A stretch of DNA of 47,214 nucleotides from a virus: the IMG/VR virus record IMGVR_UViG_3300036766_000117, positions 1-47,214 of that record, one strand, 5' to 3'. The notes under the pieces were generated by a model. It did not search any database and was not told the origin of the DNA. It saw only the letters and a program-made list of their open reading frames with translations. Positions 31,122 through 47,214 of this stretch are shown one piece after another. The position numbers were made by a program, and so were the translations under genes. Position 1 is the first letter of the stretch. Every line of letters begins with the position of its first letter.

Positions 31122-32039
31122 ATGGCAGCACAAAGACCAAATTTTGCAGATACACTAGCACCAGAACTGGCGGAAGTATTTTTCGACAGATACGAAGCAG
31201 AGCCAGAAATGATGCCATCCTTGTTCAAGGTCAAAACAACTGACCGAGATAAGGAAACCGAATCCGCAGTAAGTGGATTCTCTCTCTTAATTCAAACAGC
31301 AGAACTTGGGCCACTTGATTATGAAGACCCGAACCAAATGTATAGGACGACCTATACTCCTTTGAAATACACCAAAGGATTCAAAGTTTCCCAGGAATTA
31401 GTTGAAGATGACCAGCACAATGTTATTCGGGCAATGCCTGAAGCACTTGGAAAAGCAGCTAAAAGAACTCAAGAGTTCTATGCAGCTTCGGTATTCAACA
31501 ACGGATTCACTGCTGCAAACACTTCTTACGGAGACGCAAAACCATTATTCTCTACCCTTCATCCGAGGGCAGATGGTGGAACAGCTCAATCCAATGCCAG
31601 CTCAACTGGTATCACCTTAACTGAAACTAATCTTGAAACAGCCAGAATTGCCTTCCGCAAGTTCTTGGATGACAAAGGAATGCGGTTCATGTCTAATCCA
31701 AACTGCTTACTTACACCAGTTGACCTTGAGAAAACAGCAATGATTCTTTCAAAGTCCACAATGAGACCTGGAACTGCCAATAACGACTACAACATTTATG
31801 CAGGAATGTTCGATGTCAAGGTCTGGGAGTATCTTACATCTCAAACAGCATGGTTCTTGCTCGACATGAGGAATCATTTAATCTCCTGGTACTGGAGAAT
31901 CCGACCAGAGTTCAAACAGGATAACGCATTTGATACAGATGCAGCTCTCTATAAGACTCGTGTAAGATTCAGCTTCGGCTGGAGCGACTGGAGAGGAACA
32001 TTCGGGTCAGCAGGAGACGGACAAGCATACGCACTATAA
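31122..32039 (+). CDS. Major capsid protein (HK97-like, gpT-type)
   Basis: 305 aa. The series SGFSLLIQTAELGPLDYEDPNQMYRTTYTPLKYTKGFKVSQELVEDD, RTQEFYAASVFNNGF, DAKPLFSTLHP and a C-terminal FDTDAALYKTRVRFSFGWSDWRG resembles HK97-fold capsid proteins of Mu gpT-like phages. Length, N-arm and E-loop-like segment fit. It is the last gene before a strong terminator, so its transcript stops there. Confidence 0.8.
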   Translation: MAAQRPNFADTLAPELAEVFFDRYEAEPEMMPSLFKVKTTDRDKETESAVSGFSLLIQTAELGPLDYEDPNQMYRTTYTPLKYTKGFKVSQELVEDDQHNVIRAMPEALGKAAKRTQEFYAASVFNNGFTAANTSYGDAKPLFSTLHPRADGGTAQSNASSTGITLTETNLETARIAFRKFLDDKGMRFMSNPNCLLTPVDLEKTAMILSKSTMRPGTANNDYNIYAGMFDVKVWEYLTSQTAWFLLDMRNHLISWYWRIRPEFKQDNAFDTDAALYKTRVRFSFGWSDWRGTFGSAGDGQAYAL

Positions 32040-32793: not shown

Positions 32794-33237
32794 ATGAGTG
32801 TAACAAGTTTTGGTGATAATAGCCTAGATGCAATTGCGGGACGCATTCCCGTTGTATCAACTAAGCCAACTACCCCTGCTGGATATTACGGAGCAGGAGC
32901 AGTCGGTTATGATGAATGGCGTGGTGGAGAACCAATCTATCTTTCAACTGACAATAAACTTTACATTCAGCAAAGCACTTCTGGAGTTGCTGCGACTTGG
33001 AAGAAATTAGATTCAGCTTTTTCAACTTCGACTACCAGCTCGTCAACTTCCAGTTCAAGTTCAACTAGCTCTAGTTCAAGTTCTAGCAGTTCCACTTCCA
33101 GTAGTTCAAGTAGCTCTAGTTCGAGTTCAACCAGCTCTACAAGCTCTAGCACAAGTTCGACATCAACAAGTTCGAGTACATCAAGTTCGTCATCCAGTAG
33201 TTCCAGCTCAAGTAGCTCGACTACAACGATGCCTTAA
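32794..33237 (+). CDS. Ser/Thr-tailed virion protein, paralogue 1
   Basis: 147 aa. Residues 1-75 form a small beta domain: AIAGRIPVVSTKPTTPAGYYGAG, YDEWRGGEPIYLSTDNKLYIQQSTSGVAATWKK. The remaining ~70 residues are Ser/Thr only, ending TTTMP. Two neighbours (33243, 33566) share the beta domain (W-GGE, YIQ-TSG-TWK) with shorter or no tails. The pattern suggests a decoration or fibre protein with variable-length mucin-like tails. The tail is a plausible O-glycosylation target. Confidence 0.7.
   Translation: MSVTSFGDNSLDAIAGRIPVVSTKPTTPAGYYGAGAVGYDEWRGGEPIYLSTDNKLYIQQSTSGVAATWKKLDSAFSTSTTSSSTSSSSSTSSSSSSSSSTSSSSSSSSSSSTSSTSSSTSSTSTSSSTSSSSSSSSSSSSSTTTMP
33022..33228 (+). repeat. Ser/Thr-only coding tract, ~69 codons
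   Basis: Uninterrupted Ser and Thr codons, with mixed synonymous codons, at the end of the gene at 32794. Confidence 0.9.
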
Positions 33238-33242
33238 AATAT

Positions 33243-33554
33243 ATGAGCACATACAGTAATTTAGACGCAATAACAGGAAGACTCAAAGTTGTAACAGGCA
33301 ACCCTCTAACTCTCGTGGATTACTACGGAGCAGACGGGATGGTTGACCTTGACCATTGGATTGGTGGAGAAGTTGTATATAACAGTTCTGATAGTAGGAT
33401 TTATATTCAAACAGCAACATCAGGTGTAACTCCTACCTGGAAAAGAACTGGGAACAAAAATACATTCGCAACTAGCACATCGAGTTCGACAAGCACAAGT
33501 TCGTCAACATCGAGTTCGTCAACATCGAGTAGTTCAACTACTACGATGCCGTAA
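33243..33554 (+). CDS. Ser/Thr-tailed virion protein, paralogue 2
   Basis: 103 aa. The same globular domain as paralogue 1 (AITGRLKVVTGNPLTLVDYYGADG, HWIGGEVVYNSSDSRIYIQTATSGVTPTWKR), then a short ~25-codon Ser/Thr tail ending TTTMP. It lies 5 bp after paralogue 1. This looks like tandem duplication followed by tail-length change. Role as for paralogue 1. Confidence 0.7.
   Translation: MSTYSNLDAITGRLKVVTGNPLTLVDYYGADGMVDLDHWIGGEVVYNSSDSRIYIQTATSGVTPTWKRTGNKNTFATSTSSSTSTSSSTSSSSTSSSSTTTMP
33471..33545 (+). repeat. Ser/Thr-only coding tract, ~25 codons
   Basis: Short tail of the gene at 33243; includes the repeated unit TCATCGAGTTCG-like (STSSS) twice. Confidence 0.85.
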
Positions 33555-33565
33555 GGAGAAAAAAT

Positions 33566-33826
33566 ATGGCAGAAACAACAGCAATAATTAGAGATAAAGC
33601 ACTAAATAGCCCAGTAGGGAGATTTAAGCTGGTTACGCAACTACCGCAGACACCATCGGCTTACTATGGCGGAAGTTATACTTTGAAAGATTCCGATTGG
33701 AGAGGTGGAGAAATTGTCTATCATAACGGAACTGGGACTGGAGCAAACAAGCTCTATATTCAAACAGCAACTTCGGGAACAACGCCTACATGGAAAAGGC
33801 TGCTCCCGCAGTTTATAACAGGATAA
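33566..33826 (+). CDS. Paralogue 3, no Ser/Thr tail
   Basis: 86 aa. SPVGRFKLVTQLPQTPSAYYGGSYT, WRGGEIVYHNG...LYIQTATSGTTPTWKRL follows the other two, but the protein ends QFITG with no Ser/Thr tail. A good AAGGAGAA ribosome-binding site is present. The three genes form a graded series of tail lengths (69, 25, 0 codons). Confidence 0.7.
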   Translation: MAETTAIIRDKALNSPVGRFKLVTQLPQTPSAYYGGSYTLKDSDWRGGEIVYHNGTGTGANKLYIQTATSGTTPTWKRLLPQFITG

Positions 33827-33830
33827 AAAT

Positions 33831-34205
33831 ATGGCACACACAATAACATTAAGTCATGTAAGAAGTCTGGATACCGAGGAACACGAAATCTTAAAAGTGC
33901 TCTCGGCACAGAACGCAAAAGAAACTACCTCTGATGAGGTGGATGCTGACCACGCAAAGTATGCTAGCATCGGAGCTAAGTCATCAGGGGCAGTCAGTGG
34001 TGGAACAGTTCTCCTTGAAGGATGCCCAATCTCGGCTGATGCAGCCCAGTGGATTACTTTGGCCACTCTCACAGTCAATGGTGCGAATAAGTGGTTTGGA
34101 GCTGACGCAGCCAATGGACTTGCTGTTTGCCGATTTCTCCGAGCCAGGATTTCTGCACAGGTTGCCAACGGGACAGTAGATGTCTATATCGGAGTAAAGA
34201 GATAA
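33831..34205 (+). CDS. Small structural protein, unknown
   Basis: 124 aa. It begins MAHTITLSHVRSLDTEEHEIL, then beta strands with SSGAVSGGTVLLEGCPISADAAQWITLATLTVNG and a DVYIGVK end. It resembles small phage decoration or head-tail proteins in composition. It sits directly after the Ser/Thr-tailed family, and before the first methyltransferase. Confidence 0.45.
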   Translation: MAHTITLSHVRSLDTEEHEILKVLSAQNAKETTSDEVDADHAKYASIGAKSSGAVSGGTVLLEGCPISADAAQWITLATLTVNGANKWFGADAANGLAVCRFLRARISAQVANGTVDVYIGVKR

Positions 34206-34209
34206 CAAT

Positions 34210-34734
34210 GTGCATGATTACACTAAACCTAAAATCTGGGACATAGTCTGGCATAAGAATTACGAAAAATACAAAACACATCATCAAGTCTTCTGGAATC
34301 TACTCCGTCAAAAAGCAAAAGGTAAAGTATTGGATTTGGCTTGTGGGCCTGCTTGTTATTGGACTGATTGTCCTATTGAATTATTTGGCTGTGATTTTAG
34401 CTCTGAAGCTATTTCCGAGGCTGTTCTCAATAATCCCACAGGTAAATTTCTCGTAGCAGAACTTCCCACCCACCACTATGACGGAATGCGTTTCGATACT
34501 GTCGTTATGTCTGGGCTGGTTAATTACTACCAAGACCTAGCTCCCTTCATGCAGATGGCGGTTCTCGCTTCCCGTCCTGGTTCACACTTCCTTATCACCA
34601 TAAATGTTATTGACGATTTCTCTGACCGCCACTGGGATATGGACAGAATTGAGTCCGAGTTTCTCCCTTACGGGATTGTCCAAGCCAAGTTTTATCCAAA
34701 AATAGGGTGGCTTGTTGACATTGAAACAATTTGA
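34210..34734 (+). CDS. SAM-dependent methyltransferase (class I)
   Basis: 174 aa, read from a GTG at 34210. Motif I is VLDLACGPA (residues ~40-48), then FGCDFSSEAISEA, and motif-IV-like DTVVMSGLVNYY. Start choice: an ATG two bases upstream is out of frame. Methyl acceptor not visible. As the first enzyme of the cluster near sugar genes, it may methylate a glycan or a nucleotide sugar; DNA methylation is not suggested by its motifs. Confidence 0.7.
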   Translation: MHDYTKPKIWDIVWHKNYEKYKTHHQVFWNLLRQKAKGKVLDLACGPACYWTDCPIELFGCDFSSEAISEAVLNNPTGKFLVAELPTHHYDGMRFDTVVMSGLVNYYQDLAPFMQMAVLASRPGSHFLITINVIDDFSDRHWDMDRIESEFLPYGIVQAKFYPKIGWLVDIETI

Positions 34735-34753
34735 TACCATAATAATGGAGACT

Positions 34754-35008
34754 ATGAATAAAGATGAGATAGATGTAATAAAGACTTCAGACTTCACTTT
34801 GGCTTCAACTCTCCTGTGTTTGGGCTTCGACATAATAGGTATTGACAAGACCGATATAAAAAGAGTAATCTTTTATTATAGGAAGACTTCAGACCTTGAA
34901 ATGGCGATGCAAAAGTTCGTGAATAACGAGGTCAGGGTCAACCCGAAGGACTTTGTTTTCGCACAGAGGGAGGTGAAAACGATTATCTATTCGGATATAC
35001 AGATATGA
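34754..35008 (+). CDS. DUF5659-like small protein
   Basis: 84 aa from MNKDEID at 34754; a reading 14 residues longer exists. The pattern IKTSDFTLASTLLCLGFDIIGIDKTDIKRVIFYYRKTSDLEMAMQKF...VNPKDFVFAQREVKTIIY matches the DUF5659 arrangement of strand and helix, seen often in phage genomes and of unknown function. An ATGGAGAC octamer lies immediately upstream. Confidence 0.6.
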   Translation: MNKDEIDVIKTSDFTLASTLLCLGFDIIGIDKTDIKRVIFYYRKTSDLEMAMQKFVNNEVRVNPKDFVFAQREVKTIIYSDIQI

Positions 35009-35256
35009 GAATACTTAAAAATTTATCAAGAGAATGGGTTAAGGCATCCTACAGTGGCAGGGAACTTGTCATCAAACCAAAAGGTTCTCTGACGATAGAC
35101 GAGAGTGGTAGGCTCAAAGGAGCAACTGATTATCTCTTACAAACCTTTGGCTTTCTTAGAGAAATCACACCGATTACTACTTATCCTACTCCCAAGAATG
35201 ATGAGGAAGTAAAGAAAGTAGTTAAAAAAGCAAGGGGGGTGAAGAAAAATAAATGA
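35005..35256 (+). CDS. Small structural protein, unknown
   Basis: 83 aa, overlapping the previous gene by 4 bp. Reads MRILKNLSREWVKASYSGRELVIKPKGSLTIDESG, then TDYLLQTFGFLREITP and a Lys-rich tail. Its middle (TDYLLQTFGFLR) is similar to the N-terminal part of the next gene (YLTQVYGFLQR), so these two may be related by duplication. Confidence 0.5.
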   Translation: MRILKNLSREWVKASYSGRELVIKPKGSLTIDESGRLKGATDYLLQTFGFLREITPITTYPTPKNDEEVKKVVKKARGVKKNK

Positions 35257-35819
35257 TTGTCCATAATCCAACAGATACAGCCGTAAGAGATTATCCTATT
35301 CAAGACCCGAAGGGTGGAGATGTGGCTCTTTGGAGTATATTGCCAGGGGAAACACTCGACTTTCCTGATTACGCAGGTAAATACTTGACACAAGTTTATG
35401 GCTTTTTACAAAGAGTCGTAACCAAAGAAGAACTTAAAGTTGAGCAAGATGAAACAGAAAAGCTCAATCAAGGAAAACATTTCTCACCAGTTAAAATTGT
35501 TGAGAAAGGAGCAACCAATGCAGTAATGCAAGCTCCAGCTCCAACAGCAGAACAACTTACACCAAAAAATCCAGTGCTTACTCCTCCAGCTCAACAGTCA
35601 GGATTGCCACCGCAACCTGATATGGTAGGTGGAGTAGTCGGAGATGAGGCTGACAAAGTGCCAGAAGCTCAACCGAGTGCAGTGCCAGCACCAACAGTGC
35701 AGCCTGCTGCTAAGACAGGAGGGTTAGTTTGTCCTGATTGCGGAAAGAGTTTCCAAAATAAAGCTGCGTTGAAAACACATTACGCTCACCAACATTTGGT
35801 TCTTCCAGGGATAAGCTAA
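35253..35819 (+). CDS. Virion-region protein with C-terminal C2H2 finger
   Basis: 188 aa. Residues 1-60 form a small beta domain (PIQDPKGGDVALWSILPGETLDF, YLTQVYGFLQRVV). A Pro/Gln/Ala-rich linker follows (about 85-155). The last ~35 residues are a classic C2H2 zinc finger: LVCPDCGKSFQNKAALKTHYAHQH, with the conserved Phe and Leu. Classical C2H2 fingers are unusual in phage structural regions. It may bind nucleic acid or another protein in the virion. Confidence 0.65.
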   Translation: MIVHNPTDTAVRDYPIQDPKGGDVALWSILPGETLDFPDYAGKYLTQVYGFLQRVVTKEELKVEQDETEKLNQGKHFSPVKIVEKGATNAVMQAPAPTAEQLTPKNPVLTPPAQQSGLPPQPDMVGGVVGDEADKVPEAQPSAVPAPTVQPAAKTGGLVCPDCGKSFQNKAALKTHYAHQHLVLPGIS

Positions 35820-35824
35820 TATGT

Positions 35825-36280
35825 ATGCAAACGATAACGCTAGACGGCATCGAGTATGTTCTCGTTCCAAAGGAAACACTGCAACCGACTATTGCGGGGG
35901 GGGTCGGGTCTCAACCCCCTGTGGCAACGCAGGATGCCCCTAGAAGCCCGTTAGAGGACTTCATTGGGGAATCAGTCGCTCCAACTACTCAACCCCATGT
36001 AGATGATGGTTTGGCGACCCAGGATGAGAAGGAAATTGCCATTAGGGTAGTAACTCCTGAACAAACAGTTGATGTTCCCAAAGCTCAACCAAAGGTTTAC
36101 GATTATCGTGAAAAGTTTTTGAAGAAAGAACTGATGCCTTCCGATGTCTATGCAACACCAAAGTATGATGCAAAGACTTTGGCAGGAAATCCCGAAGACC
36201 CCATGATTAAAGCTGATGCCCAGAAACCAGCCAGCATGAGACTGTTCTACGGGCCTGGTGCTCAATATGAGGGGTATTGA
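35825..36280 (+). CDS. Small Pro-rich protein, unknown
   Basis: 151 aa. A short N-terminal beta segment (QTITLDGIEYVLVPKE) is followed by long Pro/Gln/Asp-rich, probably disordered stretches, a YDYREKFLKKEL helix and a C-terminus with PASMRLFYGPGAQYEGY. Gene order and Pro-rich composition suggest a structural or linker protein. No family recognised. Confidence 0.45.
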   Translation: MQTITLDGIEYVLVPKETLQPTIAGGVGSQPPVATQDAPRSPLEDFIGESVAPTTQPHVDDGLATQDEKEIAIRVVTPEQTVDVPKAQPKVYDYREKFLKKELMPSDVYATPKYDAKTLAGNPEDPMIKADAQKPASMRLFYGPGAQYEGY

Positions 36281-36282
36281 CT

Positions 36283-36310
36283 TTGACGATAATGGGGACT
36301 ATTCTATAAT
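36283..36310 (+). promoter_or_regulatory. Promoter of the glycan cluster
   Basis: TTGACG (36283-36288), 16 bp, TATAAT (36305-36310). A short leader precedes the ATG at 36328, with no ribosome-binding site. An ATGGGGAC octamer lies between the two boxes. Confidence 0.55.
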
Positions 36311-36327
36311 AGTTCGATATAAATGAT

Positions 36328-37761
36328 ATGAAAAAAATAGGTATTCTTACCACATTCGGTTCATGGGACGAAGCATACTCACCTTGTAATGTAGTCAAGC
36401 ATCACTTGCTTGCTCTCGTCAGATATGGATACACTCCCACTTTATTTGTTCTCGATTGTTTTCCAGAAGAATTTAAGATTGAAGGCGTTGATATTCAACG
36501 GGTACTTCCCACAATTAAGTTCGAACCCTACCAGGGAATCGTTCAGCACCACAATATCCCCAATGTTTTTGAAAAAGACATAGCAAGAATTGTGCCTGCA
36601 ATGGAACAGGCTTTCAAAGATTTCGATATTCTTCTTTGTCAGGATATTATTTTTCAGGATTCATTTCTTGCCTATAACGCATCTCTCCGTAAGATGGTCA
36701 TGCCCAAAGAACTCAAACTCTACCATTGGATGCACTCTGGCCCATCAAAAAGATTGGAGATGGGAGAACCAATGTCTTTTCTTTTTACTCTCCCGCCTCA
36801 ATCCAGACTCATTTATATGAATCGCTATGATGTGGTTCGGGCTGCTGAAATGTATGGAATCTATCCCAAAGATGTACGGGTGGTTCATAACCCTGTTGAT
36901 TATCGCTTACAGGAAGGAACTGACGATTTAACCGACAAAATAATTTCTCACTTCGGATGCAATGAAGCTGACATTACAGCCGTTTATCCTCTTTCAACTA
37001 CACGCATGGGGGCAGGTGGGAAGCAGCTTCATAAAGCAATCAAGGTTATGGCTGGTCTCAAAAAGCTGGGGAATAAAGTCCGTTTCATTGTTCCCAATGC
37101 TCATGCTAACGCAGCAAATGAAAAGACTGAAATTGAAAAGATGCGTAATTTTGCTAAAGAACAGGGACTTGACCCACGCTATGAACTTATTTTTACTTCT
37201 CTGATTGACCCGAAATGGGAGCACGGGATTCCTCACAATGTGGTAGTTCAACTGATTCGTTATTCAGATATATTTTTGTTTCCAACAGTATCGGAAAACT
37301 GTCCTTTGATTCTACTTGAAGCTGCACTTGGTAAAAATCTGATGGTTCTCAATGAAGATTTTTCACCACTTAAAGATTTTGTCGGGCCACATGCTCTCTA
37401 TTTCAAGTTTGATTCCGTTACTACAACGACCAATCACTCTGGATACCCAGATGGTGAAGATGGTTATTTCAGGGATTGTGCCAAGATTATCAATGCTGAA
37501 TTGCAGAGCAATAGGATTTATTTAGCTTATAAAGAAATTCGTAATAAGTTCAATATAGACTATATCTTCAAAAAGCAATTAGAACCTTTGTTCTATGAGA
37601 ACTGGGAAGAAGAAGTAAAAGCACCACAGGGAAATCCCGCACTTGGTATTCCCACAACTGGTGAGCTTAAACCAACAGACCAGGACATGTTAGAGCTTCC
37701 CCCTCAAGGGATGCCAGACATCCTAGAAGGGGAGGAGGGTTATGGAGTACCAGGAGAATGA
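36328..37761 (+). CDS. Glycosyltransferase, GT4-like (GT-B)
   Basis: 477 aa. N-terminal Rossmann-like half with LYHWMHSGPS and YMNRYDVVRAAEMYGI; C-terminal half with VRVVHNPVD, a GGKQLHKAI donor-binding segment (near 230-237), and FLFPTVSENCPLILLEAALG containing the E-x7-E pair (Glu323, Glu331). These are GT4-family retaining glycosyltransferase features. The last ~45 residues are an acidic, Pro-rich extension. It begins a nine-gene cluster with overlapping starts and stops; sugar and acceptor are unknown. Confidence 0.8.
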   Translation: MKKIGILTTFGSWDEAYSPCNVVKHHLLALVRYGYTPTLFVLDCFPEEFKIEGVDIQRVLPTIKFEPYQGIVQHHNIPNVFEKDIARIVPAMEQAFKDFDILLCQDIIFQDSFLAYNASLRKMVMPKELKLYHWMHSGPSKRLEMGEPMSFLFTLPPQSRLIYMNRYDVVRAAEMYGIYPKDVRVVHNPVDYRLQEGTDDLTDKIISHFGCNEADITAVYPLSTTRMGAGGKQLHKAIKVMAGLKKLGNKVRFIVPNAHANAANEKTEIEKMRNFAKEQGLDPRYELIFTSLIDPKWEHGIPHNVVVQLIRYSDIFLFPTVSENCPLILLEAALGKNLMVLNEDFSPLKDFVGPHALYFKFDSVTTTTNHSGYPDGEDGYFRDCAKIINAELQSNRIYLAYKEIRNKFNIDYIFKKQLEPLFYENWEEEVKAPQGNPALGIPTTGELKPTDQDMLELPPQGMPDILEGEEGYGVPGE

Positions 37762-38413
37762 AGAATTACACGACTTTCCAGAGTTTGATAAGGTCTATAA
37801 AAGATTTCAGGAGAAGGGGATTCTTAAAGACCCTACTCAAATCAGTCTTTACACGGCCATCTCAAATGTCTGGTGTGTCGGAAAAGCTGTACTCGATGCA
37901 GGGTGCGGTTTGGGTATCGGAACACATATCCTTGCCAGAGAAGCCCTGGGAGTTTGGGGACTTGATAACAACGCTGACACAATCAAAGTGGCCAAACTCT
38001 TATATGAAGGCCCACGCCTCAAATTTGAAGAAGTGGATTTACTTGAAGAACTCCCACGACCCTTTGCTACATTCGATATTGTTACCTGTATTGAAGTCAT
38101 TGAACATGTAAAAGATTATGAAAAAATTATTATTACTCTCAAAAAATTCCATGACCCTAAAAGACGGACTGTCTTTTTTATCTCATCTCCAAATCGAAAT
38201 TCCCAAAAACTTGGCCAGCAGAAACCGAATAATGAATACCATGTACGGGAATGGATGGCAGGTGAATTTTATCAGATTCTTACAAAGCACTTCGGAAGTG
38301 TTGTTCTTTACTCTGGTGAAAGAGTGGACACTTTTGCACAGGAGGAAACAGTTGATGGGAACACGGAGGAAACGCCTATCTTAGCAAAGTGTGAAGACCC
38401 AATTGCATTATGA
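37742..38413 (+). CDS. SAM methyltransferase (class I), cluster gene
   Basis: 223 aa, strong GGGGAGGAGGG site, overlapping the glycosyltransferase by 20 bp. Motif I AVLDAGCGLGIGTH at 49-62, then VWGLDNN, and FDIVTCIEVIEHV, typical of the small-molecule Methyltransf_11/23 group. Probably methylates a sugar or nucleotide-sugar intermediate. Two more methyltransferases lie in the same cluster. Confidence 0.8.
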   Translation: MEYQENEELHDFPEFDKVYKRFQEKGILKDPTQISLYTAISNVWCVGKAVLDAGCGLGIGTHILAREALGVWGLDNNADTIKVAKLLYEGPRLKFEEVDLLEELPRPFATFDIVTCIEVIEHVKDYEKIIITLKKFHDPKRRTVFFISSPNRNSQKLGQQKPNNEYHVREWMAGEFYQILTKHFGSVVLYSGERVDTFAQEETVDGNTEETPILAKCEDPIAL

Positions 38414-39345
38414 AAGAAGAAATTTTACTAATCGGTGAAGGATTTATAGGTTCAAAACTCGCAACAAGATTGACCGAGCTTGGTTATCAGGTGTCTATTG
38501 CTGACATAAAATATGGTCAGGATATTACTAATAAAGGGGTCATTGATGAGGTTATTCGAAAGTTCCCAGGACAGAAGATTATTCTCATGGCAGCTATTGC
38601 CAACCTCAATGACTTTGAAAAGAATCCAGAGCTGGGTATGGATGTGAATGTTTTGGGAGTTGTAAATGTTTCACTAGCTTGCCATGCGTACAAAAAGCGT
38701 CTTTATTACATTTCCACCTGTTGTGTCTATGGGAATACTCCCGACCTTCCCTCCACAGAACAGGCACGGCCAGAACCTTCAGAGGTGTATGCAGCAGCAA
38801 AGCTGGCAGGGGAGTGGATAATCAAAGGTTTGAACAAATCCTACGATATGGAATATGTGATTCTCCGCATTGCCACTTGCTACGGCCCAGGCATGAGGAA
38901 TGCTCTCGCACCTGCGGTTTTCATCAATCAGATTAAAAGGAATGAGCCTATCACAATTCACGGAGATGGGAAGCAAACCCGAACTCTTACTTACATTGAC
39001 GATGAGGTTGAAGGAATCGCTCAAGTTATTAAGTCTGATGTGGTCAACGATACTTTTAATATCTCTACCGAAGAAGAAATTTCTGTTACTTATATGTCTT
39101 CCGTTATCCGTGAGGAAATGGGAGTGCCTGACCATCCAGTCGTAAAGATTGCAGACCGCAAGGGACAGACTTTTACGGAACAAATTTCTACAGGGAAGAT
39201 GCGGGATGTAAGAATCTGGAAAGGAAGATATGCTCCGAATCCCATGAAGGTAAATGGATTGGGGTGGGTAGCCAAGACTTCATTCAGGGAAGGAATTAGA
39301 AAAACCCTTGAATGGATGAAAGAGAATAACCTAGAAACCTTATGA
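38410..39345 (+). CDS. NAD-dependent epimerase/dehydratase (SDR)
   Basis: 311 aa. Rossmann motif IGEGFIGS (8-15), a Thr/Ser-rich strand YYISTCCVYGN, and Tyr127-x3-Lys131 in YAAAKLAGE, the extended-SDR catalytic pair. ATYGPGMR-like and EEISV/TRTLTYIDD segments match sugar-nucleotide epimerase/dehydratases. It probably makes a modified nucleotide sugar together with the next gene. ATGA overlaps on both sides. Confidence 0.8.
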   Translation: MKEEILLIGEGFIGSKLATRLTELGYQVSIADIKYGQDITNKGVIDEVIRKFPGQKIILMAAIANLNDFEKNPELGMDVNVLGVVNVSLACHAYKKRLYYISTCCVYGNTPDLPSTEQARPEPSEVYAAAKLAGEWIIKGLNKSYDMEYVILRIATCYGPGMRNALAPAVFINQIKRNEPITIHGDGKQTRTLTYIDDEVEGIAQVIKSDVVNDTFNISTEEEISVTYMSSVIREEMGVPDHPVVKIADRKGQTFTEQISTGKMRDVRIWKGRYAPNPMKVNGLGWVAKTSFREGIRKTLEWMKENNLETL

Positions 39346-40280
39346 AGATTTTAGTTACAGGCGGAGCAGGATTTATTGGTTCACATTTGGTGGACTCACT
39401 TATTGAGGACAAACATGAAGTTATTGTTATTGATAATCTTAGCACTGGCAGACGGGATAATCTCAATCCTAAAGCCGTTTTTCATCGTCTTGACATCTCC
39501 CGTGATGGAGGAAAAATTGAAAAACTCTTTAAGCGGGAACGATTCGATTATGTCTTCCACCTCGCAGCAATGGCCAGAATCAACGAGTGTCTTGACAAGC
39601 CCATCGAATCCTTCTCAATCAATACCTTAGCAACTTTGTTCCTGGTTCACATGGCCAGGGTTCATGGAGCAGCTTTTGTCTTTTCCTCAAGTTCATCAGT
39701 TTATGGGGAGATAGATAAAAGAGTTCCTGTTGTTGAGGAGACATTGCATAATCCGATTTCTCTTTATGGAGTTCATAAATCATCAGCCGAGAAATTGGTT
39801 TTGATGTACCATAAATTTTATAACACAAAGACTGCTGTTTTAAGATATTTTAATGTGTATGGAACTTCCCGCCAGAATCCAGAAGGGGCTTATCCGAATG
39901 TCTTTGCTGCTTTTGGTAGGGATTTTAGGAAGGGAGAAATAACTATTTATGGAGACGGAGACCAGGAAAGGGATTATATTCATGTTTTCGATGTAGTTAA
40001 AGCTAACAAAAGATTCTTACAAACCCAGCAATGTTGGGGGCAGGCTTTTAATATCGGGACAGGAGAACCTCACACAGTCAATGAAGTCGCAGACTACTTT
40101 GACTTTGGGGTGAAAAGAAATTACCAGCCTGCGAGAGTTGGAGACCCCCGCTTCTCATGTGCTGATACTCATAAAGCAGATATGAAACTCGGATTTAGGT
40201 CTGAAGTTCCGTTTAACAAAGGTGTTCAAATCTTTTTACAGTCGCTAAAAGAGTTCACATCTTTTTATAAGAAAGGATAA
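39342..40280 (+). CDS. UDP-glucose/GlcNAc 4-epimerase-like (GalE family)
   Basis: 312 aa. GGAGFIGS (7-14), IDNLSTG (30-36), VFSSSSSVYGE near 113-123, Tyr142-x3-Lys146 in YGVHK, LRYFNVYG and GDGDQERDYIHV: the set of GalE/WbpP-type 4-epimerases, which interconvert UDP-Glc/UDP-Gal or UDP-GlcNAc/UDP-GalNAc. Which substrate cannot be told from sequence alone. In this cluster it is the likely source of a galacto-type donor for the GT27-like enzyme. Confidence 0.85.
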   Translation: MKILVTGGAGFIGSHLVDSLIEDKHEVIVIDNLSTGRRDNLNPKAVFHRLDISRDGGKIEKLFKRERFDYVFHLAAMARINECLDKPIESFSINTLATLFLVHMARVHGAAFVFSSSSSVYGEIDKRVPVVEETLHNPISLYGVHKSSAEKLVLMYHKFYNTKTAVLRYFNVYGTSRQNPEGAYPNVFAAFGRDFRKGEITIYGDGDQERDYIHVFDVVKANKRFLQTQQCWGQAFNIGTGEPHTVNEVADYFDFGVKRNYQPARVGDPRFSCADTHKADMKLGFRSEVPFNKGVQIFLQSLKEFTSFYKKG

Positions 40281-40282
40281 TT

Positions 40283-41272
40283 ATGGAACAAGATGATTTA
40301 TACTTAATTGCAGAGTTGGAGGACAAGACCCTCCAGACTGTCTATGAATATGTACGGAACAATGTACCACGGCCTTTTGGTCTCCTTCTTTCTGGTGGGT
40401 TTGATAGCGGTTTACTTGCTGCTGTTACGAAACCTGACTTTGTTTTCACTGTCCGTTTTCCATACGGGATTCAATACGATGAGAGTCGTTATGCTGATGC
40501 TGTTATTGACCATCTTGGTTTGCGTAGCAAGACTGTTATTTTAGAACCTCGTAAAGAAGACTTTGAACGGGATGCTGCGGATGCAATCAAAGTTATCGGT
40601 GAACCAGTAACCCACTTTTCAATCGTTCCCTTTTACATGGTCATGCGACTGGCTGCTGAAAGAATGCAGGAGAAGGGGTTGACTCCGCATGTTTTGTCAG
40701 GAGAAGGGCCAGATGAATACCTCGGTGGGTATGCCAGACAGATTATCTTTGATGAATTTTACAAACTATATAGAATCCCAGAACTTAGAAATTATCACGA
40801 GACGATTGATAGGGTGCTTACAAAAGATAGCAGTTATACCGAGGAGCATTTAGTTCATCTTTATGGAGAAATGATGGGTTATCCTCTTGAAAAAATTAAA
40901 GATTACGCATCAATGTTTAAGCTCCCCCTTCAAGGCAGAATCGGTAAAATGGATATGGAACTTGGGGTTATTGAGAAATTTGAACAAAAGCTCGCTAAAG
41001 CTGCGGGAGTAAACTTACATTATCCTTACATTAACGAGGAATACGCACAGTATTGTTATGCCCTGCCAGATAATTTGAAGATTCGGGGTGGCGTAACTAA
41101 GTGGGCATTCAGACAGATATGTAAGAAATACTTACCTGGATTTATGATGGACAGAGCTAAGATGGGTGGCCCAGTTGCACCTATCAATACTTGGTTAGGT
41201 AAACCAGAATTGGGGTTTGGTAAGTCAGCTTGGTTGGATTACCAAAACAAAATACTAAATGAAAACAAATGA
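40283..41272 (+). CDS. Asparagine-synthase-like amidotransferase, no glutaminase domain
   Basis: 329 aa. ATP-pyrophosphatase loop LSGGFDSG (36-43), then a conserved VLSGEGPDEYLGGY near 145-158: the synthase domain of the AsnB family. The N-terminal glutaminase domain with its Cys2 is missing, so ammonia must come from elsewhere or the enzyme uses another amine. Similar stand-alone proteins occur in surface-sugar gene clusters, where they amidate sugar acids; that fits here. Confidence 0.75.
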   Translation: MEQDDLYLIAELEDKTLQTVYEYVRNNVPRPFGLLLSGGFDSGLLAAVTKPDFVFTVRFPYGIQYDESRYADAVIDHLGLRSKTVILEPRKEDFERDAADAIKVIGEPVTHFSIVPFYMVMRLAAERMQEKGLTPHVLSGEGPDEYLGGYARQIIFDEFYKLYRIPELRNYHETIDRVLTKDSSYTEEHLVHLYGEMMGYPLEKIKDYASMFKLPLQGRIGKMDMELGVIEKFEQKLAKAAGVNLHYPYINEEYAQYCYALPDNLKIRGGVTKWAFRQICKKYLPGFMMDRAKMGGPVAPINTWLGKPELGFGKSAWLDYQNKILNENK

Positions 41273-41978
41273 AAGATATACTAGCATCGTTATTGCTTCG
41301 TATATTGCAGACGAGCTTCGAGCAAAGATGTTTCGCACTTCGCTTGACTCCTTGTTAGCAACTACGGAGAATCTTCCTGTTGAAATTATTGTTGTAGATA
41401 ATGGTGGGGATTTACACATTTCTGGCTATCTTGATGGTTTGCTTCTTGGTGGTGCAATTCAGTGCGTAATTCACAATGCCAACAATATGCACTTCGGATT
41501 TGCCCGTAATCAAGGACTGGCGATGGCAAAAGGAAATTACATTTGTATAGCTGATAATGATATTTATTATGAGGATGGCTGGTTGGAAGACAGTTTGGAC
41601 TTTCTTGAAAAATATCCAGAGGAAAAGGTTTATGCAAGTTTTATTGATTATCCAATGGGGGGACTTACGGAAAGATACCATCAGGGCGTACTTGGTGATG
41701 CTAAATTAAGTATGAGGGCAGGAAGTAATTGTTGGGTAATGAGAAAACGGGATTTTGATATTTTAGGGGGCTTTGAAAACCATCGGGTTGCTGGCACAAG
41801 GTGGACTGATAATGCCGTGAGAAATGGTTATCTTTGTGCAGTTCTACCAGGACAGAAAACAAGGGATTTAGGACTTCGGCAAGGATATGACCATACAAAA
41901 TCACTTCCCGTGAAAAGAACCTTACGCAATGGAGAGGAGGTGTACTTCAACCAAGATGAGTTTGAGATACCCAGTTAG
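41259..41978 (+). CDS. Glycosyltransferase, GT2-like (GT-A)
   Basis: 239 aa. TSIVIASYIADEL start, VDNGGD at 47-52 and Asp99-Asn100-Asp101 (IADNDIYY), the GT-A metal/nucleotide-sugar motif. The rest contains WVMRKRDFDILGGFENH, a common GT2 acceptor-side pattern. Likely transfers a second sugar. Overlaps its neighbours by 14 and about 23 bp. Confidence 0.8.
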   Translation: MKTNERYTSIVIASYIADELRAKMFRTSLDSLLATTENLPVEIIVVDNGGDLHISGYLDGLLLGGAIQCVIHNANNMHFGFARNQGLAMAKGNYICIADNDIYYEDGWLEDSLDFLEKYPEEKVYASFIDYPMGGLTERYHQGVLGDAKLSMRAGSNCWVMRKRDFDILGGFENHRVAGTRWTDNAVRNGYLCAVLPGQKTRDLGLRQGYDHTKSLPVKRTLRNGEEVYFNQDEFEIPS

Positions 41979-42519
41979 TCGAAAGTTTGCATCAAGTTGG
42001 CAACACCATGTGGTTAGGTATGCCTGGGCACTTCCTCATTGTTATCGGAGGAGTGTTCTTGAAACTGGTAGTCAGTATGGATGGGGAGCTTATCTTATTT
42101 CCTGGGTAGCCAATTCAGTTACTTTGACAGATATTAGTAAACCCTGGATGGAGTATGCCATGAAGCAGGTTTATCAATGTCCAGTAGAGTTCTTTCTCAA
42201 AGATTTCGAAAAGGAATTTGTTGTAGGGAAATGGGATACGATTGTTTGCTTTGAAACAATTGAGCATCTTGAAGACCCGAATTTCTTTTTGGAACAATGT
42301 TCTAAATCTATGACAGAGAAAGGAAGATTTCTCTTTTCTGTTCCTCACATGGTAGAAAACCATGAACACAAACAGGTTTATGATAAGAAAAAGATTTCTG
42401 CACTAATCTCTAAGTATTTTACGCTGGAAGATATTTTTGAGCAGACCAAAGAACCGATTACGGGAAACAATATGTACGGAGATTTGAAATGTTATGTAGG
42501 ATGGGCAACTAAAAAATGA
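41956..42519 (+). CDS. SAM methyltransferase (class I), cluster gene
   Basis: 187 aa from MSLRYPV at 41956; a reading from 41929 is nine codons longer. Motif I VLETGSQYGWGAYL, VTLTDIS, and DTIVCFETIEHL, a UbiE/Methyltransf_11-type. Motif I has Thr-Gly-Ser instead of the usual D-x-GxG, so binding may differ. Third methyltransferase of the region. Confidence 0.7.
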   Translation: MSLRYPVSRKFASSWQHHVVRYAWALPHCYRRSVLETGSQYGWGAYLISWVANSVTLTDISKPWMEYAMKQVYQCPVEFFLKDFEKEFVVGKWDTIVCFETIEHLEDPNFFLEQCSKSMTEKGRFLFSVPHMVENHEHKQVYDKKKISALISKYFTLEDIFEQTKEPITGNNMYGDLKCYVGWATKK

Positions 42520-43676
42520 GTGGAGTAACTTTTATCATATCAGCTCGAAACGAATACCCGCAGGTCGCAATGACTGTGGATAATCTTATGTTGGATTGCT
42601 GGCAGGCTGGAATCCATGACTGGGAAGTAATTATTGCCGACAACGGGTCAACGGATAATACCAGTAAGTTTTGGAAATATGCTTTTAAGAATCCTTATGC
42701 CAAACATGCCGACCACCAACTTCCTGAAGAACTCCAGTATTCCCCCCGTGGCATGGCAAATGAGGGAAGAATTAAATTTGTCTATGACCCAGTATTCTCA
42801 AATGTAGGAGCACGCCATCTGGCTGTTCAATATGCCAAGTACGAAAACATTATCTTTGCTGATGCTCACATTTCCTTGAAGCCTGGAACTGTTAAATATG
42901 TTCTTGAAACTCTGGATAAGTTCGGAGGAGTAGTTCATGCACCTGTTGCTTGGATGGGGGCTTCGGTTTATCATCCGCATCCTGGTATGCAATATACTTA
43001 CAAGATTGGTGAGAAGATTTGGGGTACTTGGAATTATGCCCAAACTGTGGGAGATGCACCTTTTTATATTCCTTTATCTGGTCATTGTTTTATTGCTGTT
43101 AAAAAGAAAGAATATATGGATTTCGGGGGATACGACACGCATCAACAGATTTATGGTGGGGGAGAAAACTATCTTGATACTCTCTATTGGTTGCTTGGCA
43201 GTAATGTTATGGTTGACCCACGGGGTCTGGTATTTCACCTTTCTGCTGGTAGGGGGTATTCATATAATCAGACTTCTTTGATTCACAACATGATTCTTAC
43301 TGCTTATACGCTGGGTGGGGAGAAATGGTCTGAACGAATTTTTCTTACTTACTTGGATAAGACGGGAACGGATATAAAAATGTTGAAAGAGATGTATGCC
43401 AAGACACTTGAAGAAGGTAAGGAAAAACGGGAGCTAATAGCTTCCCGACAGATAATGTCTCTTGAAGATTTGTTAGGAATTAACAGACCGAATGATTGTG
43501 ATGGGGCGGAATATAAGATGCAGGCCCATGCAAAAAGAATTTGGGATATTAAAAATGATGAATTGCATGGTCATCATATTTCCTTTGTAACTGTATTCGG
43601 GGATTGGATTGATAGGCTTAAAACTGAAGAAGCCAAAGATTTCTTTGTAAATAGTCTTTATCAAAAGGAGACATGA
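42516..43676 (+). CDS. GT27-like (polypeptide GalNAc-transferase-type) glycosyltransferase
   Basis: 386 aa. GT-A fold: VTFIISARNEYPQ, IIADNGSTDNT at 39-49, RHLAVQYAKYENIIFADAH with Asp116-x-His118 (DxH rather than DxD), then a FGGYDTHQQIYGGGENYLDT block at ~203-222 and His241 in LVFHLSAGRGY. DxH, (W/G)GGEN and a later His ligand in this order are the signature of polypeptide GalNAc-transferases, which start mucin-type O-glycans on Ser/Thr. Adjacent genes encode Ser/Thr-only virion tails. Substrate is inferred, not shown. Confidence 0.7.
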   Translation: MSGVTFIISARNEYPQVAMTVDNLMLDCWQAGIHDWEVIIADNGSTDNTSKFWKYAFKNPYAKHADHQLPEELQYSPRGMANEGRIKFVYDPVFSNVGARHLAVQYAKYENIIFADAHISLKPGTVKYVLETLDKFGGVVHAPVAWMGASVYHPHPGMQYTYKIGEKIWGTWNYAQTVGDAPFYIPLSGHCFIAVKKKEYMDFGGYDTHQQIYGGGENYLDTLYWLLGSNVMVDPRGLVFHLSAGRGYSYNQTSLIHNMILTAYTLGGEKWSERIFLTYLDKTGTDIKMLKEMYAKTLEEGKEKRELIASRQIMSLEDLLGINRPNDCDGAEYKMQAHAKRIWDIKNDELHGHHISFVTVFGDWIDRLKTEEAKDFFVNSLYQKET

Positions 43677-43993
43677 TGTGGACATTAGAAAAGAAGCAAA
43701 AATATAATCGGGAATATAGAATTAGAAATAAAATTATTCTAAATAAGAAGCGTAAAGAGTGGACTTTGAAACGCAGAATTGCAATTATAAAGAAATTTGG
43801 AGGTAAGTGTAAAAGGTGTGGTTTTGACGACCCAAGAGCATTACAAATTGACCATGTTAATAATGGTGGTCATAAAGAATATAAAAAAATGTCAGAGTTT
43901 AGATACTACAAAATGGTTCTTGAAGATACTTCTGGGAAATATCAGATTCTATGTGCTAATTGTAATTGGATTAAACGATATGAAAAATCTTAA
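43673..43993 (+). CDS. HNH endonuclease, small
   Basis: 106 aa, ATGA overlap with the previous gene. Very basic N-terminus (KKQKYNREYRIRNKIILNKKRK), then KCKRCGFDDPRALQIDHVNNGGHKEYK and ILCANCNWIKRYEKS: Cys-x2-Cys, Asp-His, Cys-x2-Cys of the zinc-bound HNH fold. It may be a homing endonuclease. Second of two HNH genes bracketing the fibre and glycan cluster. Confidence 0.8.
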   Translation: MMWTLEKKQKYNREYRIRNKIILNKKRKEWTLKRRIAIIKKFGGKCKRCGFDDPRALQIDHVNNGGHKEYKKMSEFRYYKMVLEDTSGKYQILCANCNWIKRYEKS

Positions 43994-44023
43994 TAGTCCC
44001 CATCAAAAAGGTTGAGGGGTTAT

Positions 44024-44031
44024 GTTATACT
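44024..44031 (+). promoter_or_regulatory. Leaderless promoter, GTTATACT
   Basis: TATGTTATACT with TATACT at 44026-44031, 6 nt to the ATG at 44038. Confidence 0.6.
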
Positions 44032-44037
44032 AGAACT

Positions 44038-44607
44038 ATGTCATTACAAACCTGGGAAGAATTAGTATCAGTTCAAGTTGCAGCAGGCACATCTTTTGGT
44101 ACTTATACCACAGCTAAAACTGTTATCAATCCACAAGCTCTTTATGTCCTTCCTGCTGGATTTTGGACAATTGGTAAAAAGCTGCGTATTACAATTCATG
44201 GCGGAATTGGTACTCTTGTAACCACCCCTGGGACAATTACCTTCCAAGTAATGATTGGTTCTGTTATCGCTTTCACCACTGGGGCAATTCAACTTAATGC
44301 GACTGCTCACACTAATCTTCCTTTCAGACTTGATATAACTTTGACCTGTCGGGCAGTGGGTAATTCAACAAATGCAAATCTTATGGGACAGGGTATCATT
44401 TTTGGTAAAATGGTAACTGTAACCGCAGCCCAAACAGACGGAGCAAATACTAATTCAGTTATTTTAGTTCCTGCCACCGCAGCAGGAGTTGGAACAGGAT
44501 TTGATAGTACAATTGCCAACATTCTTGATTTGTTCGTAGGATTCTCAATTAGTGATGCAGCTAACACAATTAAGATTGAACAATACGAAGTAGAAGCTCT
44601 GAACTAA
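44038..44607 (+). CDS. Beta-rich structural protein, unknown
   Basis: 189 aa. Composed of beta strands with Gly/Thr-rich turns (LRITIHGGIGTLVTTPGTITFQVMIGSVIAFTTG, LVPATAAGVGTGFDSTIAN, DAANTIKIEQYEVEALN). Such single-domain proteins before a large fibre gene are often neck, fibre-base or tail proteins. It is transcribed from its own leaderless promoter. No family recognised. Confidence 0.55.
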   Translation: MSLQTWEELVSVQVAAGTSFGTYTTAKTVINPQALYVLPAGFWTIGKKLRITIHGGIGTLVTTPGTITFQVMIGSVIAFTTGAIQLNATAHTNLPFRLDITLTCRAVGNSTNANLMGQGIIFGKMVTVTAAQTDGANTNSVILVPATAAGVGTGFDSTIANILDLFVGFSISDAANTIKIEQYEVEALN

Positions 44608-44650
44608 CCTCCTCCTCTCATTGTCTCCATGACTGCTATAGTCTTTCTAA

Positions 44651-44658
44651 GTTATACT
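44651..44658 (+). promoter_or_regulatory. Promoter of the large fibre gene
   Basis: AAGTTATACT, TATACT at 44653-44658, then 10 nt to the ATG at 44669. It has a longer gap than the other leaderless promoters, so a leader of a few bases is possible. Confidence 0.55.
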
Positions 44659-44668
44659 AGAAAGTAAT

Positions 44669-47214
44669 ATGGCAAGACTGTGGTCATCAGGTATTGAATT
44701 ACAATCAGTAACGGCAGGTGTTGAGTTTGACACTATTGTCGGTTCTCCAACAATTGCTACCGATATAAAACGAAGCGGTTTAGCTTCACTCCGAACAAAT
44801 CCCACGGCTGCTGCTCATTATGTCAGTAAAGAAATCCAGGCTAATGGTGGAACAAATTATGTTTTCGTCAGAGTTTGGGTTTACATAGCGACTGCTCCTT
44901 CTGCTGATACCACTATCATAAATCTACCAGAGACCACTACATTATTCGGTGATGGTGCGTCTATTATTTTGACTACTGGTCGTCAACTTCAGTTTTTTGA
45001 TGAAAGTGGGTCTGCACAAATTGGTTCAAATAGTGCAACCATTCCTCTAAATGAATGGCACATGATTGAGATTCAGGTGGCGACTGACGGAGACTCTCTT
45101 TTTGCCAGATTAGATGGTATTCAATTTGCTACCGATGTTGGGATGTCTGGTATTGTTGCTTCCCCTCAAACTCTTTTCGTAGGAGTTCTTGATGCAACTA
45201 CGGCTGACCTCTATTTTGATGATATTGCTGTCAACAACGCTTCTGCGGGAGGAGACCAAACTTCATTCCCAGGTAGAGGAAAAATTGTCCATTTGCACCC
45301 AAGTGGAACGGGAGATAACAATACTGCACTGCGAGGGGGAGCTGATAGTGGTGCTAATTGGAGTCAAATAAATGACATAACTCCAAATGATGCGACTGCC
45401 TACATGATTATTGAAGCAACCAATGACACTGTTGATGTTTTGGTTGAATCACCCACAGTTGCGAGTCTTGATATTTCAGACCAAATAAAATTGGTTCAGA
45501 TTGGAGCTAGGTGGACAGGAGCAACTTCTGGGTCGCAGATTATAAATTTAAGAGTTAAGTCTGCTCCAGGTGGGACGACTACTGAAACAGCCAATATAAC
45601 TATGGCTTCTGCTTCTTGGTGGACTAACGATGATACTGCACCAAGAAATTATAAATTAACATCATATACCGACCCAACCACAGGAAATGTTTGGAAAGTC
45701 TATGGCCCTAATTCGTTGGATAATATGCAAATTGGTGCTAGGGCAAGTGATGCTGTTCCTGACAATTGGATTACTGCTATCTGGGCATTGGTAGAGTATC
45801 TTCCAGTAGGTTTTTCAGCTATTGGCAGACCTTTCCACCCAGGAAAAGGCCCGTCAAATATAGGAAGATTTTTTCAAACCAGAAAGGATATGCAGGCTTT
45901 AGCACCTGTATTCCCTACCACAACTACCAGCACTAGCACTTCAACTTCAACGAGTTCTAGTACCAGTTCCTCAACCTCCAGTTCTACGAGTACCAGCACT
46001 AGCACTTCGAGTTCTACAAGTACCAGTTCGAGCAGTAGCTCGACAACAACTCAATCGGGAACAACTGCTCACACCGCCACCAGTAGTTCAACAACTTCCA
46101 GCTCAACTTCAAGTTCTTCAAGTACAAGTTCTTCGACTTCCAGTAGTTCAAGTACAAGTTCCTCAACCTCAAGTAGCACAAGTTCTAGCAGTTCTTCAAC
46201 TTCGAGTAGCACGAGTTCTAGCACTAGCAGTTCGACTTCCAGTAGTACCAGTTCAAGTACCTCGTCAACCTCAAGTTCTACGAGTTCTAGCACTAGTACC
46301 TCGACTTCGACTTCCAGCAGTTCGAGCAGTTCGTCCACATCTTCTTCGTCCACGACTTCTGCTATGCCTACCGAGCTTGGTGGGGATACAGAGTTTGAAC
46401 GCTATTGGGATTTAATGAATGAGGCAAACGGGAACTCCTCAAGAAATTCTAATATCACCAGTGCTACGGCAGTTGAAACAAATGGAAGACTGATTGGATT
46501 TGATAAGGGAGATTTCAACGGAGCTACTGTTCAGGTCTTCTTTGAAGTTGTAGGTTCAATCGCTAATTCTGCTCAAACAGGTTCTTTCGAACTTTATGAT
46601 GTAACTAATGCAGCCATCATAGCCACTGTTACTGTTACTGGCTCTACTGCTATGCAGAGAGTCCGCTCTGCGGATTTACTTTCTTCCCTGGCTGCTGGCC
46701 TTGTTGAATATACAGTTCGTGCCTATAACTCTGATGGTGCAACTGTTGCTAAAATCTTCACGGCCCGTTTAATTGTTCTTCAAATTAACGCAGGAGGAGT
46801 AGATAAGACTGCGGGAGATTTCATTCTATCAAGTAGGGGAACGATTTTTTCCACCAGTTATACAACTCAATCACAGTTCCAATATGGCGGGTCATTTATC
46901 TACCACTCTGCTTGGTGGGAGAACACTCTTTTCTATCTTGAAGCCACAATGAGTGATTCTGACCCTGCGGGTACAGTCTTTATTGACCTTTGGGATGATA
47001 CTGCAAACGCATCGGTTTCTGGTTCTGAACTTTCTGTTGTTGGAACTACTGTTACCAGGGTTCGTTCAGCAGCATTAACGCTGACCGATGGAAACGAATA
47101 CTATATTCGGGTTAAGCATGTCAGTGCTTCTGGAACTTTATTTAGAGCTGCCCTTCTTTTCCTTACCGATGCCACCGCTTCGGCTGGTGCAAAGTTTGCT
47201 GACTATCGTTCTAT
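44669..47214 (+). CDS. Large Ser/Thr-rich tail fibre, 3'-truncated
   Basis: The frame is open from 44669 to the window end, at least 848 codons. Residues ~1-195 are a lectin/LamG-like domain (MARLWSSGIELQSVTAGVEF, WHMIEIQVATDGDSLFARLDGIQF, LYFDDIAVNN). A second beta domain follows to ~415, then a ~148-codon Ser/Thr tract. After it come at least two related beta-sandwich repeats (around 46550-46790 and 46920-47200); the second is homologous to the start of the window. Infers a long fibre or adhesin with lectin-type binding and mucin-like spacers. Confidence 0.75.
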   Translation, partial: MARLWSSGIELQSVTAGVEFDTIVGSPTIATDIKRSGLASLRTNPTAAAHYVSKEIQANGGTNYVFVRVWVYIATAPSADTTIINLPETTTLFGDGASIILTTGRQLQFFDESGSAQIGSNSATIPLNEWHMIEIQVATDGDSLFARLDGIQFATDVGMSGIVASPQTLFVGVLDATTADLYFDDIAVNNASAGGDQTSFPGRGKIVHLHPSGTGDNNTALRGGADSGANWSQINDITPNDATAYMIIEATNDTVDVLVESPTVASLDISDQIKLVQIGARWTGATSGSQIINLRVKSAPGGTTTETANITMASASWWTNDDTAPRNYKLTSYTDPTTGNVWKVYGPNSLDNMQIGARASDAVPDNWITAIWALVEYLPVGFSAIGRPFHPGKGPSNIGRFFQTRKDMQALAPVFPTTTTSTSTSTSTSSSTSSSTSSSTSTSTSTSSSTSTSSSSSSTTTQSGTTAHTATSSSTTSSSTSSSSSTSSSTSSSSSTSSSTSSSTSSSSSSTSSSTSSSTSSSTSSSTSSSTSSTSSSTSSSTSTSTSTSSSSSSSSTSSSSTTSAMPTELGGDTEFERYWDLMNEANGNSSRNSNITSATAVETNGRLIGFDKGDFNGATVQVFFEVVGSIANSAQTGSFELYDVTNAAIIATVTVTGSTAMQRVRSADLLSSLAAGLVEYTVRAYNSDGATVAKIFTARLIVLQINAGGVDKTAGDFILSSRGTIFSTSYTTQSQFQYGGSFIYHSAWWENTLFYLEATMSDSDPAGTVFIDLWDDTANASVSGSELSVVGTTVTRVRSAALTLTDGNEYYIRVKHVSASGTLFRAALLFLTDATASAGAKFADYRS
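45917..46360 (+). repeat. Ser/Thr-only coding tract, ~148 codons
   Basis: Ser/Thr codons broken once by QSGTTAHTA (about 46049-46075). The tract ends TTSAMP, close to the TTTMP endings of the shorter tails at 33228 and 33545. Confidence 0.9.
46925..47214 (+). repeat. Fibre domain homologous to window positions 14-303
   Basis: The last 290 bases match positions 14-303 with many synonymous differences (roughly four fifths identical by eye); the shared segments TTTCTATCTTGAAGCCACAA and GACTATCGTTCTAT bracket the match. They encode the same beta domain twice. The copies are too different for an assembly overlap, so this is a repeated fibre domain. Confidence 0.75.

Follow-up and report, generated by a model that had tools for sequence, protein, structure and literature searches.

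Does an uncultured phage whose proteins carry long serine/threonine tracts also encode the enzymes that decorate those tracts with sugar? This question is raised by the IMG/VR virus record IMGVR_UViG_3300036766_000117, analysed here as a whole (47,214 bases; the window), in which genes with pure Ser/Thr tracts surround a cluster of sugar-related genes that includes a glycosyltransferase (GT) resembling the GT27 family of polypeptide N-acetylgalactosaminyltransferases (GalNAc-Ts). A reading of the letters alone (the sequence-only reading) had proposed a mucin-type O-glycosylation system, and the gene types that it named around the tracts (GT27-like, GT4, GT2, GalE-like, SDR, AsnB-like and three methyltransferases) were confirmed. 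It is likely that this cassette O-glycosylates the phage's own tract or structural proteins in the cytoplasm, an interpretation based on the predicted fold of the enzyme, its conserved metal-site residues, the conservation of the cassette, its co-occurrence with tracts and the patterning of the tracts. As a GalNAc-T-like fold, two constant partner genes and long Ser/Thr tracts in the virion region are found together, this group of uncultured podovirus-like phages probably sugar-coats its own particles.

The GT27-like enzyme and the Ser/Thr tracts

The enzyme, the tract genes and the two virion genes used for orientation are as follows.
42516..43676, plus strand: GT27-like glycosyltransferase, proposed initiating enzyme (D116xH118, YGGGE, H241)
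32794..33237, plus strand: small protein of the capsid region with a 69-residue Ser/Thr tail (tract 33022-33228), proposed substrate
33243..33554, plus strand: paralogue with a 25-residue Ser/Thr tail (tract 33471-33545), proposed substrate
44669..47212, plus strand: putative fibre-like protein, truncated by the contig end, with tracts of 45 (45917-46051) and 94 residues (46079-46360), proposed substrate
3..1715, plus strand: putative fibre-like protein, 5' end missing, with tracts of 131 (654-1046), 35 (1059-1163), 85 (1179-1433) and 35 residues (1437-1541)
31122..32039, plus strand: major capsid protein, context (PHROG 371/133, E ~1e-20; tblastn to capsid proteins)
1739..2962, plus strand: SU10-type head-tail adaptor, context (PF24175, E 4e-12)

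The GT27-like enzyme carries a PF00535 domain, and as a single sequence it shows weak similarity to GalNAc-Ts. When a profile of 19 homologues was compared with PDB sequences, GalNAc-Ts were matched (E 6e-10 to 6e-6) in alignments spanning the DxH motif, the GGE motif and the third His; the majority of matches to other GT-A enzymes were weaker and limited to the N-terminal half. An AlphaFold2 model built with 19 homologues (predicted local distance difference test [pLDDT], 82.2; predicted template modelling score, 0.85) had polypeptide GalNAc-Ts as all 50 of its best 50 PDB fold matches (E 3e-16 to 7e-13), and the comparison with GT27 and other GT-A families suggested in the sequence-only reading came out in favour of GT27. 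In a viral library, the best fold matches were GT-A proteins of uncultured phages with no function assigned beyond GT-A. An earlier model from four sequences was poor (pLDDT, 54), and its matches were not used. Residues D116, H118, E217 and H241 were invariant in 19/19 homologues, and D116, H118 and H241 align with the GalNAc-T metal-site residues (DxH and the third His ligand). At the position of the WGGEN-type motif the enzyme has Y-G-G-G-E, with Tyr or Gly in place of Trp at the aligned positions.

Among the relatives of the enzyme, L294 encodes a GT27-like protein fused to a methyltransferase. The GT27-like open reading frames (ORFs) of L313, L311 and L312 are 667-705 residues long and contain an in-frame insertion of ~300 residues with LAGLIDADG-type similarity, which looks like an intein in the conserved core of the enzyme; in L311 and L313 the insertion lies at the identical profile position (~164, GEK-WG motif).

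All eight pure Ser/Thr tracts of the window (25-131 residues each) lie in open frames. The sequence-only reading had assigned tract-bearing virion genes to four places; the tracts were found at each, while the virion status follows from position only, as the domains of the tract genes had no family match above the cut-off. Located after the major capsid gene and before the SU10-type adaptor, these genes would encode virion proteins. G002, G059 and other relatives keep the N-terminal domain of the 32794 protein 3' of their capsid gene, and gene 44669 follows the GT27-like gene and precedes the adaptor, as in G001 and G002. Genes 44669 and 3..1715 flank the contig break and share homologous domains and a 33-nucleotide identical stretch. 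The two contig ends most likely adjoin, because the tract genes of G001 and G002 sit between the GT27-like gene and the adaptor, and the two genes, previously treated as distinct, are probably neighbours or pieces of one gene.

The tracts of the window are patterned. Thr residues spaced by 4 were observed 47 times against 13.5 expected, a number reached in 0 of 2000 shuffles, and spacings of 3 and 1 were rarer than expected. Spacings of 2 and 4 were both enriched in the relatives G001, G002, G004, G005 and G134, and a spacing of 2 was enriched in G059, G065, G079 and G093, the last of which was enriched for 3 too; of the remaining relatives tested, G099 favours 3 and G180 shows little pattern. 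All 10 Ser/Thr codons are used across the tracts, with Ser encoded by both TCN and AGY, and this codon mixing, together with the lag analysis, ruled out a DNA microsatellite. Ser codons 4 apart in the window were less alike than expected (identity of 0.118 versus 0.204), which argues against a simple 12-bp duplication. As Ser codons at matching lags were mostly no more alike than expected in both the window and its relatives, selection works on the amino acids of the tracts and not via recent DNA duplication. An exception was observed at lags that differ from the amino acid period of 4: in the window tracts (654-1541 and others) identical Ser codons recur in excess at 5 (1.86-fold) and 10 codons (1.56-fold), a likeness absent in most relatives.

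Co-occurrence of the enzyme with tracts

Two DNA-pattern scans for tracts, blind to the enzyme and based on patterns with 14 fixed bases, were applied to 2.9 million viral contigs; each yielded at least 120 stretches, with ~229 distinct contigs among the matches listed. A separate scan of IMG/VR for the enzyme yielded 24 contigs, 11 of which were also among the tract-scan matches listed; chance alone would give ~0.002 (24 x 229 / 2.9 million), a figure that rises somewhat with the length and relatedness of the contigs, but not to 11. The joint occurrence in related phages that the sequence-only reading had offered as a check was therefore present far above chance. Of 160 tract records, 55 had long, Ser-rich tracts of mixed codons, and 11 of these gave strong enzyme matches, whereas the 105 others gave 0; the exact p-value of this contrast is not to be relied on, as the thresholds for "long, Ser-rich" were chosen after the first set had been seen. 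Of the enzyme contigs that reach 25 kb, 16/16 had tracts, the window included, and the enzyme contigs without tracts were fragments of <17 kb. Enzyme gene and tract gene are immediate neighbours in the distant members L139, L140 and L142 as well. A control of 14 random contigs contained 0 tracts and 0 enzyme matches; because this sample is too small on its own, the case is built on the overlap between the blind scans and on the contrast within the tract records.

Such an association could also result from the shared ancestry of one phage lineage, with no functional linkage between enzyme and tracts. Several of the contigs are indeed close relatives with common capsid and tract genes, and relatedness is uncorrected in the scan counts. 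However, gene order differs among the phages: tract genes flank the cassette in G001 and G002, while those of G004, G065 and G180 lie several kb off on the opposite strand. Their TerL proteins, moreover, match with E values between 1e-135 and 1e-12 or show no detected similarity. We regard mere common descent as the least probable of the alternatives considered here.

A second GT-A type, with DxH and GGEE motifs, was observed in tract-bearing contigs (L142:421-2397, minus strand; L189:7175-9757; L178:1953-2876; L061:158-1009, minus strand). It is fused to a Methyltransf_24 domain in L142 and L189 and adjoins a tract gene in L142, and is possibly a parallel system.

The cassette and its proposed targets

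The genes accompanying the GT27-like gene in the window, assigned as core or accessory, are as follows.
36328..37761, plus strand: GT4-like glycosyltransferase, core (PHROG 2170 glycosyltransferase, E 7e-8; weak in Pfam)
37742..38413, plus strand: class I S-adenosylmethionine (SAM) methyltransferase, core (PF13847, E 3e-13)
38410..39345, plus strand: NAD-dependent sugar-nucleotide epimerase/dehydratase (SDR), accessory, dTDP-glucose 4,6-dehydratase / GDP-mannose epimerase-like (PF01370, E 5e-43)
39342..40280, plus strand: GalE-like UDP-hexose 4-epimerase, accessory (nearest solved structure UDP-glucose 4-epimerase 4zrm, E 4e-59)
40283..41272, plus strand: AsnB-like amidotransferase, accessory, synthetase domain only and no glutaminase domain in Pfam (PF00733, E 1e-34)
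41259..41978, plus strand: GT2 glycosyltransferase, accessory (PF00535, E 2e-18)
41929..42519, plus strand: SAM methyltransferase, accessory (PF08241, E 4e-8)
34210..34734, plus strand: SAM methyltransferase upstream of the cluster, accessory (PF08241, E 4e-5, over the cut-off)

As the ORFs of the cluster abut or overlap, their arrangement is typical of an operon. All 13 enzyme phages tested, as well as G001 and G002, carry a GT4 relative; a single-protein search of viral contigs with the GT4 protein gave no matches, and a PDB search with it returned designed proteins only. The order GT4, methyltransferase, GT27-like was found in 22/22 assessable contigs, several of them near-duplicates, and these genes are the only invariant core. 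The distant L314 has a GT4 relative, but no relative of the core methyltransferase was found in it. The GalE, SDR, AsnB and GT2 genes vary between enzyme phages, and relatives of the GT2 gene occur in G001, G002 and other enzyme phages. A GalE-like enzyme would fit a supply of UDP-GalNAc. Of the genes scanned in the cluster, none was recognised as a lipid-carrier transferase, flippase or polymerase, which speaks against a lipid-linked polysaccharide. Two relatives carry sugar-nucleotide dehydrogenase-like genes and one a DegT-like aminotransferase gene (L002:2021-2854, L003:1981-2823 and L003:3757-4713), all recognised by eye; their absence from the window suggests that outer sugars vary among phages.

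In the mechanism that we propose, the GT27-like enzyme would move a first sugar from a nucleotide sugar, most likely UDP-N-acetylhexosamine by analogy with GT27, to Ser or Thr of the tracts. The GT4 enzyme would then lengthen this sugar and the core methyltransferase would cap the glycan, while the accessory SDR, GalE, AsnB and GT2 enzymes would alter donor sugars and outer decorations phage by phage. The small capsid-region proteins and the fibre-like proteins would thereby acquire a dense, mucin-like coat of glycans, which on the virion could serve in shielding, anti-adsorption or adhesion. The label "mucin-type" of the sequence-only reading is apt for the enzyme class and the style of the candidate substrate only and is unproven as chemistry, because the GalE, AsnB and GT2 genes are variable and because we infer GalNAc as the sugar, tract Ser/Thr as the acceptor and a single pathway for GalE, AsnB and GT2.

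Several observations weigh against glycosylation of the phage's own tracts by this cassette. No glycan or tract modification has been observed. Template modelling scores to GalNAc-Ts were moderate (0.47-0.57 by query) at ~15% identity, and GalE lies outside the invariant core. A ricin-type lectin domain is usual but not universal in GT27; none was found with Pfam in the enzyme, the modelled C terminus of which is helical, and due to this absence the enzyme is named GT27-like and not a GT27 member. Tract phages without a GT27-like enzyme are common, and 19 Ser-rich tract records that lack it divide into 12 with another PF00535 enzyme and 7 with no PF00535 glycosyltransferase. Likewise, the cultured Tunturiibacter phage Tunturi_4, which has no tracts, encodes a distant member of the enzyme group (gp2; PP885687 1567-2565; E 3e-37) between its terminase and portal genes.

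Both the tract phages without the enzyme and Tunturi_4 would suit a cassette that acts elsewhere, on a host surface glycan, phage DNA or the folded capsid, with the tracts serving as flexible or entropic linkers of the same lineages. GT2-type enzymes of temperate phages, moreover, often change host surface sugars. However, it is peptide-acting GTs in particular that share the predicted fold, the cluster yielded no membrane or lipid-carrier partner, and the pairing of tracts with the enzyme, often in nearby genes, extends over homologues of 32-52% identity. The Thr spacing within the tracts is also constrained, which is not expected of a mere linker. We consider this alternative, another target with the tracts as linkers, unlikely. 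Tract phages without the enzyme, together with the other GT2-type enzymes in the 12 records noted above, which include DxH/GGE enzymes in tract-bearing contigs, could also indicate that the tracts are glycosylated by host or other phage enzymes and that the GT27-like enzyme adds to an existing glycan. In contrast, its fold is like that of initiating polypeptide transferases and unlike that of extension enzymes, and with the patterns applied no relative of it turned up among 84,980 species genomes of bacteria and archaea. Such a secondary role is very unlikely. Beyond the preferred reading of initiation on the phage's own tracts, we propose more tentatively, and would not yet call probable, a complete phage mucin-like coat with a GalNAc-T-fold initiator that is virus-only in these collections, Thr at every second or fourth residue encoding glycan spacing, and exchangeable decoration genes.

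Known glycosylation systems and the phage context

Eukaryotic GT27 GalNAc-Ts share with the phage enzyme the GT-A fold as best match, the DxH and GGE motifs and the third His ligand, and Ser/Thr-rich acceptor-type regions are encoded in the same genomes as the phage enzyme. They differ in their lectin domain, in sequence (at the identity given above) and in that activity and donor of the phage enzyme are predicted; moreover, the phage genes form a cytoplasmic operon with a methyltransferase and a GT4 enzyme, and there is no Golgi pathway. Bacterial serine-rich repeat adhesins resemble the proposed system in that dedicated GTs, whose genes lie next to that of the substrate, glycosylate Ser-rich stretches in the cytoplasm; their initiators, however, are GtfA/B (GT4 type), accessory secretion genes are present and no phage virion is involved. 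The chondroitin synthase KfoC and other GT2-type enzymes share the GT-A fold and a partial sequence match (E 4e-7), but this match covers mainly the N-terminal half and they are absent among the best 50 fold matches.

Virion glycosylation by phage enzymes is itself already known from mycobacteriophages. In Che8 and its relatives, phage-encoded glycosyltransferases glycosylate structural proteins, and in cluster O phages a methyltransferase accompanies the glycosyltransferases, according to the citing text of PMC12619734 and PMC11600133 (on Freeman et al. 2023, PMID 37329881). The window encodes GTs alongside candidate substrates. The mycobacteriophage sites described in the citing papers are the C termini of capsid and tail-tube proteins, whereas the window candidates are dedicated tract proteins, and the citing text reports no GalNAc-T-like enzyme. 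Che8 gp108-110, three annotated glycosyltransferases, did not match the GT27-like profile at E 10. No GT27-like or mucin-type phage system was found in the literature searched (few subscription papers and no preprints), within which the pairing of mucin-like tracts with a GalNAc-T-like enzyme in a phage appears to be new. If the proposed function is correct, mucin-style protein O-glycosylation with the same enzyme fold would exist in bacterial viruses, and a genome signature of a tract plus the GT4-methyltransferase-GT27 cassette, with a core of three genes, would predict sugar-coated phages. This bears on the encounters of phage particles with antibodies, surfaces and host cells, as well as on the origin of GT27 and on bacterial protein glycosylation.

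The phage itself is probably podovirus-like, as judged from the TerL, portal, major capsid protein and SU10-type adaptor encoded in the window. Two small HNH/endonuclease VII-like ORFs were also observed, one between the capsid and tract genes (window:32350-32775) and the other directly 3' of the GT27-like gene (window:43673-43993); both are possible homing endonucleases.

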